Source: Turnera subulata
Lineage: Eukaryota; Streptophyta; Magnoliopsida; Malpighiales; Passifloraceae
Direction: 5' to 3'
Assembly (NCBI GenBank): GCA_028386065.3
Contig: JAKUCV010007142.1
Location: 205,170 to 269,169 of the forward strand
DNA: 64,000 bases
Below the pieces are notes generated by a model that did not search any database, was not told where the DNA came from, and worked only from the letters and a program-made list of their open reading frames with translations. The position numbers were made by a program, and so were the translations under genes. Positions 12,884-30,447 of the stretch are shown here, piece after piece. How positions within the stretch are numbered: the first letter of the stretch is position 1; each line of letters starts with the position of its first letter.

Positions 12884-14698
12884 CTACGCCTGATTCGCCA
12901 AATCCTTGGAGTCTATGAAGGTGCCATGAAATCCATATGGCACCCTTGAAGGCAACTTAACTGTAGCTTCCAACTTCAAATTCATGGCGTTCACTATGTG
13001 AAGCTCAGATTTCCATGTCTTCTCGTCGTGAACGAAAGCAAGAATGTACCCATCATCTTCCCTTTCACTTGTAGGATCTCTAGGCAGGAAAAGTGGCTCG
13101 CCACCATATTTTTTGTCACCATACATGTAATTTTTCACCTCCCCTGTAAAAAGATCAACTTTTGCAAAACCAGACACCTTAGGCCACGGCTCTGCAATGG
13201 CCAGGTAAGCGTATTGAGTCTTCCTCCCTAACCGGTTCCGGTTCACCATCCCTGCTTCTAAATTCATGTGAGCGGAATCTTGAATTATTGGGCGGCGCGT
13301 GGACTTACCCGTCTTGAGATTGAGCCTGATTTCTGATAACACACTCTTTAGGCTCTCCTCGCTTTCGTTGAAAATGGAGTCTGCTGGAGTCATGCAGGAC
13401 CCAATCACCACCACATCCTCTGATTCCGGCTCTTCCCATGCATTCCAGAGATGGAAGCAGAAAGTCTCCGGTGACTCGACCCAGATTATGTCATCGGCAT
13501 TCTTTGCATTCTTTGCCAGAATCCCAAACCGAGACACCTTGTCCTTGTCATAAATAACAGGAGACCCGCCTCTTACCAATTCCTGAAGCTTGAACACCAC
13601 TTGCTGATCAGGGATCACCACGAAATTCTCAGTGATTGCGAAGTCGTGCATCATGGTTGGCACCGGGAGATGGATATCAACGTCTGGGGATTTCTGGCCG
13701 TCAGGGGAGAATCTGAAGTATTTGAGATAAGGCTTCTTGATGACATCGTAGCTCAAGGCGAAGAGCTCTTTGGTTACAGGGTCAACCTTGGGGTGAGCAA
13801 TCATTGTGTTCTTGAGCTGGCCATCGAAATCGTATCTGCCAACCGTTTCAAGATCACCGCTGGGAGTGACGCGAACTTGGTAAGGAAGATCATCCTCGGA
13901 CATGGCAAGAAGCCTGTCGTGGAAGTAAACCAAGCCGGCGTTGGCGACGCCAGTTCCTTTGCTGTGATCAATAAGCCCGCATAGTCCTCTGGCGAAGAAA
14001 AGGAGCAATCTTGCTACCCCACTGTGCCCGTGTAGCTCCCCAATTGCTTTAGGGAACACTGGCCTACCCAACATTTTCTCTTGCTTCAGCCTCTCTGTTT
14101 CGGTGAAACGGCAGGCGTAGCTTGCTTTCCCGTTGTCAATGGTCACGGCGTGGACCATGCCGTCCCCGTCGAACAAGTGGTGCCCGGCCACCGGCTCGAA
14201 GAGCGGGTTGCCGCCGTTCCGGACATAGACTCCGTTAATGCATTCGGGGATGGTGCCGGAGACTTGGAGGCTCCGCCGGACGGGCTGTTCCGGCACCGGG
14301 GAGAAGTTACCGGCGATTTGGACTTGTGGGTCGGCGGTCTTGGGGAGTGGGTGTTGGCGCTCGCGTGAGACCAACGCGCCTTCCGCCATGTCGAGGGCCA
14401 AGGCCGCTGCTTTTTGGAGCAAGTTCCACTTAGAGGGCTGGTGGTGGTGGGTTTTAGGAGTGTCTTCTTTTGGGATTACGGGGGTTTGGTAAGGTTGGTT
14501 TGGGAAATGAAGGACTGAGGGAGTGTTCAAGGCGCAGTAAATGCGATTTCTTTTACTACTGGTGCTCTTGCTCTTGGAGAAGGAGATGGAGCCCAGCTCC
14601 AGGGCAGAAGAGGAGGGAGAGAGGGGATGGTTGCGGATTTGTGTTGTGGCCCAACTACTGCAGTTGGGAGCTCTAGTAGGAGGAGTAGTAGTAGCCAT
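12884..14698 (-). CDS. NCED: 9-cis-epoxycarotenoid dioxygenase (ABA biosynthesis), 604 aa
   Basis: The enzyme cleaves 9-cis-violaxanthin or 9-cis-neoxanthin at the 11,12 bond to give xanthoxin, the committed step of abscisic acid synthesis in plastids. Numbered from the ATG at 14698, residues 1 to ~55 are Ser/Thr-rich with few acids, like a chloroplast transit peptide. A helix near 90-112 ([18 protein letters not shown]) matches the amphipathic thylakoid-binding helix of NCEDs. The four iron-binding histidines are H302 (IAHPKVD), H351 (MMHDFAI), H416 (FHLWNAW) and H591 (GFHGTF). Second-shell glutamates E268, E481 and E534 are present. Length and lack of introns fit the NCED3/VP14 branch. The frame extends two codons upstream, but that codon is TTG; the ATG in GACCATGGC context is preferred. 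The stop is TAG at 12884-12886. The ORF is undamaged, unlike its surroundings. Confidence 0.97.
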
Positions 14699-25409: not shown

Positions 25410-25414
25410 AACAA

Positions 25415-26929
25415 TGTTAGAACCTATGTCTTCATGGTTCATTCATTACAGGTTTTGATAAATGACAAACCAAGATCATAACCAAGATGAAGCAAAAAGA
25501 AATCAAGCAAACAAGTACTCAACTAAAGTGATCAAGAATTCAAGAGAAGATATGATCAAGAGTTGAAGTGCAAGAAGAGCAAGAGAAGTTAGGACCCATT
25601 TGTACAAGGTAAAACACTCAACTTCTCTTAGGCATTGGCTCAAACAAAACAAATTTCACTCATACATTTCATAGCATGCTTTCAGTCATACAATTGTATT
25701 TTGAGTTTAAAACATCGATGTTCTGTGTTTTCAAGTCTTTCTCAAAATTTGGCAGAAGCACCAAAACATCGATGTTGTAATTAAAACATCGATGTTGTGA
25801 TTTCTTCAAAGATTTCCAAAATTTGGCAGTAGGCAAATAACATCGATGTTGGCTTCCTAAACATCGATGTTCTTGTGACCGTTGGTCAAAACATCGATGT
25901 TGTCATTTGAAACATCGATGTTGTGATTTCTTCAAGTTTTTCCAAAATTTGGCAGAAGCGGAAAAACATCGATGTTCTATTGGAAACATCGATGTTCTGA
26001 TAATTGATTTCAAAATGAATTTTGCCGATGCCAAAAAACATCGATGTTTCATTTTCCAACATCGATGTTCTTGCATAACCCTTTTTCATCATATTTTTGC
26101 GAAGCTAAAAAACATCGATGTTGTAATTGAGAACATCGATGTTGTATCTGAAAACATCGATGTTGCTCAGACAAACATCGATGTTCTACTAGCCGTTGGA
26201 GCAATAATTTAAAATTGCTGGCTAAAACATCGATGTTTAAAGTAAAAACATCGATGTTTTGCCGTTGTAGCAGACAACTTTTCAGCACCCACTATGTTTT
26301 GTTTAAGGCTGTTTTTAGGTGGATTTAAAACGGCTCTATAACTTTTCAAAGCTATAAATTGAGCATTTTTAGCTGTGTTTCAGTACGAATCAACTCTCTA
26401 CTTACATGCATTCATCTCATACATTCAAATCAATCTTTGTTGAGCCAATATCCTATTAAGGATTTGAGAGTTGCCTTTTAGAGCTTCACTTGTACACTCA
26501 TACCTGCTTTTCGAGAGAGTCTTTTATTCTGAGTGATTGTGTATTTACACACCTTGAGGGAGGTTAGTTCCCTTGGTTAGACTCATAAGAAGAGGGGTAT
26601 ATCTTCTTGTGTGAGAAGTCTTGAAGTGAGGTATCTTCAAGCAAGAGAGCTGAGGTTCATGTGACTTGAACTTTCAGGGTTTAGGATTCTTGTGACTAGA
26701 ATTCCTAGGTTGTAACGGTTTGTTAAGCACCCCTAAGCTTAACATAGATAGTGAAATCTTCAAGTGAGACTTGAAGGGCTGGATTAGCCACACTAGTAGA
26801 GTGTGTGTGAACCAGGATAAATCTCTTGTGTCCTTCATTCTTTTAATTCCGCATTCAATTCCTGCTTATTTCGTTTTTATTCGATTATCGCTATTCACCC
26901 CCCTCTAGCGAAGGGCTATTGTTCTAACA
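25415..26929 (+). repeat. 5' LTR of the gag-only copia element (1515 bp)
   Basis: It starts TGTTAGAACC and ends TTCTAACA. U3 holds the palindrome array (25711-26258), then TATAAAT at 26353, so transcription should start near 26385 and R-U5 runs to 26929. Its first ~490 bp are about 98% identical to the 3' LTR, whereas the remainder differs by roughly 15-25% with many indels (eye estimates). Confidence 0.93.
25711..26258 (+). repeat. Array of 17 perfect AACATCGATGTT palindromes (5' LTR U3)
   Basis: Exact copies start at 25711, 25765, 25785, 25839, 25860, 25890, 25911, 25965, 25985, 26037, 26058, 26111, 26132, 26153, 26174, 26226 and 26247. Start-to-start spacings are 20-21 (nine times), 30 (once) and 52-54 (six times). 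The 8-9 bp between paired copies is different nearly every time; the longer gaps share a decayed text (TTCCAAAATTTGGCAG). The last copy ends ~95 bp before the TATA box. Inference: a binding-site array in the LTR enhancer. Confidence 0.97.
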
Positions 26930-26931
26930 AT

Positions 26932-26944
26932 TGGTAGCGGAGCC
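26932..26944 (+). other. Primer-binding site of the gag-only copia element
   Basis: TGGTAGCGGAGCC starts three bases after the LTR end. It shares 12 bases with the site of the chromovirus at 2365 and carries the same two differences from the initiator-Met complement TGGTATCAGAGCC. Confidence 0.8.
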
Positions 26945-26985
26945 TAACTCTCTGAAAGACTTAATAGTTTGAGAGGTAAATTTCC

Positions 26986-28344
26986 ATGGCTTGTTCAATT
27001 GCTTTGTATGCAGGAATCACTGAAGGACAATCCACTACCCGTGCACCGTTCTTTGACGGGACAAATTACGCATATTGGAAGGAAAGGATGAGAATTTTCA
27101 TCCAAGCCAATAATTTCGCAGCTTGGCTGATGATAAAGAATGGCATTCAAATCCCATCAAAGATGGAGCACAACGTAGATAACATCCAAAGAATCGAAAA
27201 CAACTCCAAGGCGATAAACATGCTTCAGAGTGCGGTCAATCCGGATGACTATCAGTTAATCTCGCACTGCGCAACAGCCAAGGAGATGTGGAACATGTTG
27301 GAAATCATCTATGAAGAAACCAATAGCTAGCAAGATGAGACTATCAACCTTTGTTGCATGGCAAAGGAAGAATCTCCAGAAGAGGTAAGTACTTCCTACT
27401 CAAGCGATGATTATACATTTGAAGAGTTGCAGAATGCATTTAATGAAGTATATAGTAAATTCATTTCAGTCTCTAAAGTAAATAAGAATTTAAAGAAACA
27501 AATTGTAACCTTAGAAAATGATAATGAAAATTTGTCAAATGATAAGGTTGAGTTATCAAGTAAAATTGATAAGCTTGAAAAAGAAAAGCATGATCTTAAT
27601 ATGTCTTGCAATGAACTTAATGAGAAGATATCCTCAAATGTATGTTCTTGTGTTGAATTGAGAAAAGAGAATGAATCTCTTAAGCATCAAGTTGATGATT
27701 TGAAGAAAACATTAGAGAAATTTACTAATGGTAGAGATAGTCTTAATCTTCTTCTAGGACAACAAATAAGTCCAACACAAAAAGAAGGATTAGGTGCATC
27801 TAATGTGTCAAATGATGTCAAACCTACTGTGCTTAATGCCAAGACACATAAACATGATGCTTCATCTTCTACTTATCATATTAGATCACATGTTCATGAC
27901 ACAAGATCATGTACTCATCATAGAAGGTCATATGCTCAAAATGCCAAACCAAATGCAAGTAGTGGAAAAGTTCACTATGCTAAATTGTATGCTTACAATG
28001 TTAGATCAAATGCCAATGATGCAAGACCACATATACACAGTGCTAAAAATGAAGGTTCTTATTTTACTAAACCTAGGAATCATATGACTCAACTTAGGAA
28101 AAACAAGATTATACCTAGGGAAGACAAGTATAATAGATTGCATGAACATAGGCAACATAGCAACTATTATCAACCAAGGAGAATGCATAATCCAAATGTA
28201 ATTTGTCATTATTGCAATAGAATCGGACATATTGCTCCTGTTTGTTTCACTAGGCATAGGCATTGGGCTCAAGAAGAAGCTCATAACCATTATGCACCTA
28301 ACACTCAAGGACCCAAGAAGATTTGGGTACCAAAATCCCTTTGA
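26986..28344 (+). pseudogene. Copia gag with UBN2-like domain, coiled coil and zinc knuckle; one internal stop
   Basis: The ATG at 26986 is 42 nt after the primer site. The first 114 codons hold the gag N-domain of SIRE-type elements (APFFDGTNYAYWKERMRIFI, then KAINMLQSAV). A TAG at 27328 interrupts; the same frame continues with a long charged heptad-rich coiled coil (about 27460-27730), a His/Arg/Ser-rich region with many degenerate HxRS repeats (about 27830-28080), and the zinc knuckle CHYCNRIGHIAPVC (CX2CX4HX4C) near 28205-28245. It ends at TGA 28342. Gag is nearly intact while pol is gone. Confidence 0.88.
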
Positions 28345-28365
28345 TTTGTTTTGCAGGTATGCTTG

Positions 28366-28486
28366 AAGGCATCAAGTGTACTTTGGTACCTTGATTGCGG
28401 ATGCTCCAAGCAAATAACCAAAGAAGCATCCAAGTTCTTAATCAATTCTTGTAGAAATGCAAGGATGAGTGTTGTTTTTTTGTAGG
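28366..28486 (+). pseudogene. Remnant of copia protease N-terminus
   Basis: Just after gag, one frame reads VLWYLDCGCSKQIT, matching the copia protease start (WYLDSGCSKHMTG) with the catalytic Ser replaced by Cys. The homology stops within about 40 codons, marking the deletion edge of pol. Confidence 0.7.
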
Positions 28487-28562
28487 TACCCCTCATTTAA
28501 GCAAAAACATAGGGAGAACAAAGGGATGATGAAGAACTTCAAAATTTGAGCAGAAATCTCAA

Positions 28563-28595
28563 TACATCGATGTTGAGTATCACAACATCGATGTT
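28563..28595 (+). repeat. Internal palindrome pair (AACATCGATGTT type)
   Basis: A one-mismatch copy (TACATCGATGTT, 28563-28574) and a perfect copy (28584-28595) are 21 bp apart, the same pair spacing as in the LTRs. They lie in the interior, far from either LTR. Confidence 0.9.
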
Positions 28596-28740
28596 CAGCT
28601 AAGCTTTCTAACATTCTTTATTTTGGCACATATAGAAGTGTATAGGTGTAGATAATATGTTGCACTTGTTCAAAGCTCCACCTATTTCTTACATAAGCAC
28701 TTCTCAACCTCTTCTTATCATTATTTCTTTTTGCTAATGC

Positions 28741-29003
28741 CAAAAGGGGGAAAATAGGGAGAAGTATATGCACCACGATGGGGGGAATCATAGTTTGTAC
28801 AACATAGGGGGAATCATCTTTATGTTATAAACATTAGCATATACTTCTAGGTGTTTGTCATTATCAAAAAGGGGGAAAATAGGGAGAAGTATATGCACCA
28901 CGATGGGGGGAATCATAGTTTGTACAACATAGGGGGAATCATCTTTATGTTATAAACATTAGTATATACTTCTAGGTGTTTGTCATTATCAAAAAGGGGG
29001 AAA
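28741..29003 (+). repeat. Tandem duplication (~124 bp) carrying extra polypurine tracts
   Basis: The block starting AAAAGGGGGAAAATAGGG and running through GGGGGGAATC and TTCTAGGTGTTTGTC occurs twice almost identically (28741 and 28865). It is followed by a third AAAAAGGGGGAAA at 28991, directly before the 3' LTR. Only the last is in place as the plus-strand primer; the others are candidate secondary ones. Confidence 0.85.
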
Positions 29004-29004
29004 T

Positions 29005-30442
29005 TGTTAGAACCTATGTCTTCATGGTTCATTCATTACAGGTTTTGATAAATGACAAACCAAGATCATAACCAAGAAGAAGCAAAAAGAAATCAAGCAA
29101 ACAAGTACTCAACCAAAGTGATCAAGAATTCAAGAGAAGATATGATCAAGAGTTGAAGTGCAAGAAGAGCAAGAGAAGTTAGGACTCATTTGTACAAGGT
29201 AAAACACTCAACTTCTCTTAGGCATTGGCTCAAACAAAACAAATTTCACTTATACATTTCATAGCATGCTTTCAGTCATATAATTGTATTTTGAGTTTAA
29301 AACATCGATGTTGTCCTCAAAAACATCGATGTTCTGTGTTTTCAAGTCTTTCTCAAAATTTGGCAGAAGCACCAAAACATCGATGTTGTAATTAAAACAT
29401 CGATGTTGTGATTTCTTCAAAGATTTCCAAAATTTGGCAGTAGGCAAATAACATCGATGTTGGCTTCCTAAACATCGATGTTCTTGTGACCGTTGGTCAA
29501 AACATCGATGTTTCCAATCCAACATCGATGTTCATGAAAACTTGTCTTAGAAATAGAATTTTGCCGAAGCCAAAAAACATCGATGTTGGCTAATCAAACA
29601 TCGATGTTTCACAAAACATCGATGTTTCATTTTCCAACATCGATGTTCTTGCATAAACCTTTTTCAAAAGAATTTTGCCGAACCAAAATAACATCGATGT
29701 TTGGATTCAGAACATCGATGTTTTAGTTACCGTTAGCCCAAAATTCAAATTTTATGGGCAAAACATCGATGTTCTCCTTTAAAACATCGATGTTTAAGGC
29801 ATGGTCCAGACAACTTTTCAGCACCCACTAAGCTTTGCTTAAAGGTGTTTTTCTTGGGTGGATTTCAAACGGCTCCATGACTTTTCAGAGCTATATATTG
29901 AGCATTTTTAGCTGGGTTTATAATCTAATCAACTCTCTAATTCATTCATCATTCATTGCAAAACATTCATTCAAGTTTAAGAGCCAATTCCTTTGAGATT
30001 ATTGAGAGTTGCCTTATTAGAGCTTAATTGTAACTCATACCCACTCTTGAGAGAGCTTTTGTTTGAGTAATCTTTATAGTGTTGTTCATACACTGAAAGG
30101 GAGGTTTGTTCCCTTGTAGCTACTCATAGGAAGAGTGATTTTCTTTCCTTGAGAGAAGTCTTGAAGTGAGGTATCTTCAAGCAAGTGTGTAGGATTCTTG
30201 TGATTAGAATTCCTAGGCTGTAAACGGTTTGTTAAGCACCCGGAAGCTTAACGGTAGATAGTGAACTCTTCAAGTGTACCTTGAAGGACTGGATTAGCCA
30301 CAAATTAGTTGTGTGTGAACCAGTATAAAAATCTCTTGTGTCCTTCTATTTTTCAATTCCGCACTTCATTTCCTGCAAAGTTTTAAATTTTCGGTCATAA
30401 GCTATTCACCCCCCCTCTAGCTTAAGTCTATTGTTCCTAACA
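29005..30442 (+). repeat. 3' LTR of the gag-only copia element (1438 bp)
   Basis: It starts TGTTAGAACC and ends TTCCTAACA, with TATATATT at 29892 in the place of the 5' LTR TATA box. Similarity to the 5' LTR drops sharply at 29512/25901, at the end of a shared palindrome. Confidence 0.93.
29301..29794 (+). repeat. Array of 16 perfect AACATCGATGTT palindromes (3' LTR U3)
   Basis: Exact copies start at 29301, 29322, 29376, 29396, 29450, 29471, 29501, 29521, 29576, 29597, 29615, 29636, 29690, 29711, 29762 and 29783. Spacings are 18 (once), 20-21 (eight), 30 (one) and 51-55 (five). Copy number and pairing differ from the 5' LTR, but the 12-mer itself never varies and the spacing classes are kept. 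Confidence 0.97.
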
Positions 30443-30447
30443 AACAA

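Follow-up and report, generated by a model that had tools for sequence, protein, structure and literature searches.

Why should the long terminal repeats (LTRs) of one copia retrotransposon carry the same 12-bp palindrome, AACATCGATGTT, again and again, and what might read it? The element in question lies in a 64,000-nt stretch of the Turnera subulata genome (hereafter, the window), which forms one end of a 269-kb contig in an assembly of 518.7 Mb. It spans positions 25415-30442 (approximately 5 kb), is flanked on both sides by an AACAA target-site duplication, and has LTRs of 1515 bp (5') and 1438 bp (3'). A first-pass annotation of the window had proposed that the repeated palindromes constitute a binding-site array for a dimeric protein; as a whole, that interpretation is partly supported by the analysis reported here. 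From the sequence comparisons described below, we consider it probable that the array is a cis-regulatory module on double-stranded DNA for a dimeric, presumably host, transcription factor.

Architecture of the window element

The features of the element are listed in Table 1. When up to two mismatches are allowed, the window contains 35 matches to AACATCGATGTT (34 exact, and one with a single mismatch at 28563), as compared to a mean of 3.26 and a maximum of 8 in 100 shuffles. This confirms the count made at first reading, namely 17 exact copies in the 5' LTR, 16 in the 3' LTR, and one internal copy accompanied by the single-mismatch copy; the distance of about 95 bp between the end of the 5'-LTR array and the TATA-like box (26258 to 26353) was also correct. 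All 35 ATCGAT hexamers of the element fall within copies of the 12-mer; the other 13 in the window are found without the 12-mer context.

Table 1. Coordinates of the copia element and its parts within the window.
Feature	Positions	Strand	Remarks
Target-site duplication, left	25410..25414	+	AACAA
5' LTR	25415..26929	+	starts TGTTAGAACC, ends TGTTCTAACA
Palindrome array of the 5' LTR	25711..26258	+	17 exact AACATCGATGTT; spacings 20/21, 30, 52-54 bp
Second-motif core	25751..25754	+	GGCA within TTTGGCAGAAGC; followed, after exactly 10 nt, by the copy at 25765
TATA-like box	26353..26359	+	95 bp past the array; LTR position 939
Primer-binding-site junction	26930..26943	+	ATTGG-TAGCGGAGC
gag N-terminal piece, stop to stop	26980..27327	+	32.4 bits for Retrotran_gag_2, above the curated cut-off of 27
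gag C-terminal piece, stop to stop	27331..28341	+	zinc knuckle by eye
Internal site pair, 21 bp apart	28563..28595	+	one with a single mismatch (28563), one exact
Five polypurine-tract octamers AGGGGGAA	28745..29002	+	at 28745, 28806, 28870, 28931, 28995
3' LTR	29005..30442	+	first 475 bp about 99% identical to the 5' LTR; diverged beyond
Palindrome array of the 3' LTR	29301..29794	+	16 exact AACATCGATGTT
Target-site duplication, right	30443..30447	+	AACAA

Only two gag pieces are present, and no pol reading frame was found in the window element. The C-terminal gag piece gave coiled-coil-type Pfam matches, every one of them below its cut-off, and six proteins were matched in a gag protein search, two of them with a species name (Arachis and Manihot). 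The translated array gave 27 candidates in a protein search, none at an E-value up to 10. The linker contains a 125-bp tandem duplication (28742-28991) that bears extra polypurine tracts. CCGTTG words, which are like Myb sites, occur inside or beside the array at 25879, 26193, 26262, and 29490, and possible resemblances of the array spacers to MYB, W-box, and E2F sites were also considered. Elsewhere in the window, an uninterrupted 9-cis-epoxycarotenoid dioxygenase reading frame (12887-14698, minus strand) is closest to Erythroxylum (81%), with Hevea, Jatropha, and Ricinus at 80-81%, which by itself points to a eudicot host, probably of the Malpighiales.

The near-identity of the two LTRs ends at palindrome copy 25890/29501, i.e., inside the array, and yet the target-site duplication of 5 bp is intact. 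Since the LTRs of one insertion are identical at the start, this switch point suggests that a different member of the family later took part in gene conversion through the array. In the diverged part of U3, motif bases are identical between the LTRs at 120 of 120 aligned positions and spacer bases at 149 of 227; two motif copies lie in gaps, being present in one LTR only, and 13 of 165 twelve-column spacer windows are fully identical. A mutational artefact, in which array expansion and gene conversion homogenise a repeat that has no function, would be in keeping with the identity switch (recombination seems to use the array), with the variable array length among family copies, and with these 13 retained spacer windows. 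We regard such an origin as highly improbable, as homogenisation would copy the spacers too, yet identity between copies mostly stops at the edges of the 12-mer, and the word, its helical phase, and its partner motif (see below) are common to element groups whose LTRs do not align.

Genome-wide copies and the fate of sequence variants

The first reading had noted no copies of the palindrome outside this element, which holds within the window and fails genome-wide: the host assembly contains 76,101 exact copies of AACATCGATGTT versus 63 of a reversed control word, and 100,422 copies with at most one mismatch versus 1,474 for the control. In a random sample, an array was found in one out of 16 ten-kb stretches, three of the 16 being partly or wholly N. 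With so many genomic copies, the array is not private to one insertion.

The family of the window element was collected with the first 291 bp of the LTR as a query, which gave 2,245 first-look candidates; the best 40 of these 2,245 were scored (96-100% identity), and the family set is therefore biased to close copies. The 39 family LTR loci fetched, including the window's own 5' LTR, contain 538 exact copies of the 12-mer, 55 copies with one mismatch, and 6 with two, 599 in all at this tolerance. Four of the 38 loci besides the window's 5' LTR are cut by contig ends; in the 34 full loci, exact sites number 0 in L036, 1 in L054, 3 in L034, 7 in L033, and 10-20 in the others.

Variants were compared in an alignment of 32 out of 40 LTRs (the 39 loci and the window 3' LTR), eight having been dropped (the four cut loci, L033, L034, L036, and L054); the aligned LTRs were selected for at least 10 exact sites, and they include LTR pairs from one place. 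Variants confined to one copy are about as frequent in motif columns (41 in 216, or 0.19 per column) as in the upstream U3 (64 in 306, or 0.21), and both lie below the spacer columns (132 in 392, or 0.34), where the excess is perhaps due to misalignment. Seven motif variants occur in two copies. Variants present in at least three copies affect 0 of 216 motif columns, 20 of 306 upstream columns, and 206 of 392 spacer columns (Fisher test for shared variants, p = 1.8e-4 for motif versus upstream and p = 5.9e-16 for motif versus spacer); of the two, the comparison with upstream U3 is the safer, since alignment may have raised the spacer figure. Neither of the two outcomes that the first-pass annotation had named as refuting its proposal was observed: the array is not confined to one insertion, and among variants that have spread the 12-mer is unlike its flanks. 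Insertions decay freely, also at CpG, but mutated sites were not seen founding new lineages, a pattern that looks like purifying selection acting through propagation.

The earlier statement that no CpG of the palindrome had decayed is correct for the window element and incorrect for its family, in which CpG transitions account for 19 of the 67 motif substitutions in the 39 LTR loci. This makes CpG retention a weak argument for function, and it was dropped. Of 23 mismatches recorded in five further fetched loci, 15 affect the two terminal bases of the 12-mer, partly as variants shared by LTR pairs; this tolerance is a hint of a core of ten bases. In the family set, the ends of the 12-mer hold 8 of 67 substitutions and are thus not specially variable.

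Three element groups sharing one word

Comparison of motif-masked LTR and leader stretches separated the elements into three groups without a cross-match at E 1e-3. The first group contains the window element and L006, with the array upstream of the TATA box. The second group, which rests on the single contig C8, comprises three LTR types; in C8a and C8b, from which the layout relative to the TATA box was taken, the array lies approximately 200-440 bp downstream of this box and ends 20-45 bp before the LTR end. The third group rests on two loci, L009 and L017, where the array starts approximately 280-320 bp after the primer-binding site. Motif counts in these comparisons are strand-independent. 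A gag-pol reading-frame piece of 765 aa, with two zinc knuckles recognised by eye, is present in the C8a element; over 91 aa it is 32% like the gag of the window element, and for the gag piece of the third group the figure is 20% over 44 aa. We take the C8 and L009/L017 elements to resemble the Ivana/Oryco and Tork/Angela lineages. With lineages presumed in this way, the array is not confined to Sirevirus-like elements, being present also in an element (L007/L008) with a single long gag-pol piece, and in L009 and L017, where it lies behind the primer site.

The primer-site core TAGCGGAGC is found in the window element, one C8 element, L009 (at 405), and L017 (minus strand), as opposed to the published Sirevirus core TATCAGAGC; the window 5' junction, CA/ATTGG followed by TAGCGGAGC, has two mismatches to the Sirevirus junction, CA/ATTGG followed by TATCAGAGC. 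The other two C8 elements have the primer-site cores TAGCGGAGT and TAGCAGAGC, the C8 sites lying at the L007 and L008 LTR ends. Elements with TAGCGGAGC, TAGCGGAGT, or TAGCAGAGC possibly use a different priming tRNA.

The distribution of the word among these groups bears on the nature of the binding protein. According to the first-pass annotation, the array might be bound by an element-encoded protein that removes silencing, as VANC does on the motif arrays of VANDAL elements. Passages in PMC5735166 and PMC10398659 describe VANC targets as arrays of a short motif in noncoding transposon DNA that undergo tandem turnover, and the present arrays are similar in these respects; their density in noncoding DNA and the fast turnover of spacers around a constant motif resemble what is described in PMC5735166. 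Unlike the present array, the VANC targets in these passages are non-palindromic 8-9-mers of DNA transposons, and their factor is element-encoded. We consider a VANC-like factor quite unlikely here, and the proposal stands unsupported, as the same word and grammar recur in three groups with non-aligning LTRs and the window element shows gag pieces only. Because the word is common to groups with non-aligning LTRs, a host factor shared by the groups is more likely than a factor encoded by each element.

Helical spacing and a partner motif

The distances between sites cluster at 20-21, 30-33, 41-44, and 51-55 bp, which correspond to two, three, four, and five helical turns. In eleven pooled arrays, some of them being LTR pairs from a single element, the counts are 61 at 20-21, 7 at 30-33, 11 at 42-44, and 31 at 51-55 bp, with 18, 22, 58, and 99 bp observed once each; no spacing in these arrays falls at 23-29, 34-41, or 45-50 bp, and the family set has one spacing of 36 and two of 41 bp in these gap ranges. 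At 10.5 bp per turn, 40 of 43, 18 of 18, and 35 of 35 spacings in the three groups lie within 0.2 turn of an integer, as do 530 of 546 in the 38 other family loci (16, 19, 36, 57, 65, 70, and 76 bp occur there once each). Short spacers are mostly 8-9 bp long, and their sequence is not kept. The number of independent spacings is small because duplication copies spacing classes within an array; when class lengths were redrawn, the phasing gave p = 0.00025 for the window 5' LTR and p = 0.0055 for the 3' LTR. The 5' LTR array has a Rayleigh R of 0.94; for the 3' array, periods of 18.45 and 10.45 give equal scores (both 0.80). Phase over the whole array drifts in some copies (R of 0.46 in L006 and 0.70-0.71 in L009 and L017).

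A second motif, TTKGCMGWAG with the core KGCM, accompanies the palindromes: in 26 of 35 long spacers it is separated from a palindrome, on one side or the other, by exactly 10 nt (mean of 0.77 and maximum of 5 in shuffles). In the three groups, the core at 10 nt is found in 6 of 13, 5 of 7, and 15 of 15 spacers. In the window 5' LTR, the layout shown in Table 1 also precedes the copies at 25839, 25965, and (as TGCC) 26037. The choice of KGCM was made by eye, before the count, on these 35 spacers, which include similar repeats within L009 and L017. A scan of all tetramers at all offsets placed GGCA at 10 nt on top with 16 occurrences (null maximum of 6), and KGCM at 10 nt was recovered in 6 of 12 further spacers (mean of 0.16 and maximum of 3 in shuffles); as these 12 come from the window's own family, the two results answer the by-eye choice in part only. 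The absence of widely shared motif variants, the helical spacing, and the fixed-distance second motif together support the original prediction of an array of sites for a putative dimeric protein.

These regularities also weigh on a reading at the RNA level, proposed for maize Sireviruses, in which self-complementary words fold or dimerise the transcripts for packaging or form siRNA-generating hairpins. Folding of 505 nt from the 3' U3 yields -186.7 kcal/mol (z -15), and passages in PMC5311732 and PMC10760457 describe the palindrome clusters of maize Sirevirus LTRs as small-RNA hotspots of high sequence variability. In these passages, which draw on Bousios et al. (2016), those clusters lie in the LTR cis-region, like the array studied here, and consist of a different word, CACCGGACNNNGTCCGGTG. 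RNA pairing would permit compensated changes, and it predicts neither a 10.5-bp phasing nor a partner motif placed at a constant distance on whichever side of the palindrome; moreover, the array of the window family, lying upstream of the TATA box, would be transcribed at the 3' end of the RNA only, while in the other two groups it is 5'. An RNA-level role as the main explanation is thus unlikely in our estimate, and protein dimers on DNA fit better than RNA folding with the partner at a fixed distance in either orientation, the helical phase, and the varied positions relative to the promoter. Folding may nonetheless matter for silencing, as in maize Sireviruses, and small-RNA targeting could still be a consequence.

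Proposed function of the array

Under the DNA-level model that we favour, each palindrome would be occupied by a DNA-binding protein with two-fold symmetry, i.e., a dimer. Palindromes are mostly paired about two helical turns apart, with pairs about three, four, or five turns from each other, and such integer-turn spacing would set neighbouring proteins on one face of the helix, where they could contact each other; a second protein may occupy TTKGCMGWAG, 10 nt from the palindrome. The array would most likely enhance the element's promoter or license it by keeping it unmethylated, activation being presumed over repression. If only copies with intact sites were transcribed and copied, mutants would appear in dead insertions but fail to spread. 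In two groups, the array follows the TATA box or the primer site, a location that counts against this model because it is unusual for a simple upstream enhancer.

More tentatively, several unrelated copia lineages may have independently acquired, or exchanged, one multi-part DNA address for a host complex that decides on retrotransposon expression. The address would consist of pairs two turns apart, further pairs at three to five turns, and the partner at 10 nt, and would work upstream or downstream of the promoter or in the leader. If so, the approximately 76,000 sites would place the word among the most amplified regulatory words of the host genome, and were one host complex to drive many families, much of the genome's retrotransposon activity would have a single point of control. 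As a strict word, a strict spacing, and a partner motif are common to non-aligning elements, the predicted binding protein should be retrievable with one oligonucleotide, and the spacing rule is testable.

Relation to published repeated motifs

Arrays of this kind are already known as the repeated motifs (RM) of Sireviruses; what is new here is the word, the phasing, the partner motif, and the spread to non-Sirevirus-like elements. The text of Bousios et al. (2010; PMC2829016) reports RM in 13 of 21 Sireviruses as short palindromes. Each element has 8-32 of them, located within the upstream half of the LTR at a short distance before the TATA box, and sometimes also in the linker. There, the RM word is described as conserved while its flanks diverge, its dyad symmetry is taken to suggest a regulatory factor, and no common site for a single binding factor was identified; RM are given as Sirevirus-specific, absent from classic copia, and built on a CGG-CCG core except in Tnd-1. 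In the main text of that paper, the words "helical" and "spacing" are found only in the reference list. Similarly to these RM, the window array has 17 palindromes (where at least 8 are expected), starts at LTR position 297 (200-400 bp expected), and ends shortly before the TATA box. Unlike them, AACATCGATGTT has no CGG-CCG core, and the present array spans three copia groups including non-Sirevirus-like elements and shows helical phasing together with a partner motif.

The closest published word is that of the exception, tobacco Tnd-1, listed in Table 3 of PMC2829016 as ACAATCGATTGT with 8 copies at 100% identity; both are 12-bp palindromes centred on ATCGAT, and they differ in the outer three bases. 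The first-pass annotation had attributed an ATCGAT-centred palindrome to soybean SIRE-type LTRs, which could not be confirmed: this table assigns the ATCGAT type to Tnd-1, and SIRE1 is absent from it. As for the polypurine tract, Sireviruses have several AGGGGGAG-type octamers in the linker; the window has five of AGGGGGAA, the last of which begins 10 bp ahead of the 3' LTR, with AT/TG following. The terminal G-to-A change of this octamer is published for Tnd-1 and ToRTL1, so that the window octamer is like that of Tnd-1. A run of six C (26898-26903) lies 26 bp from the LTR end; the C-rich integrase signal of Sireviruses is about 19 bp long and averages 21 bp from the LTR 3' end.

Among the openly accessible papers listed in the literature searches, no protein known to bind AACATCGATGTT was found, and no report of AACATCGATGTT in transposons or of helical phasing was recognised; the full 12-mer appeared, among the matches listed, only in texts on glucocorticoid receptor structure and DNA-structure prediction. 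The one match on a viral contig (L001, 6501-6540) was set aside as unrelated to the plant elements; it contains GGGAACATCGATGTTCCC twice, 22 bp apart, and could be an operator pair.
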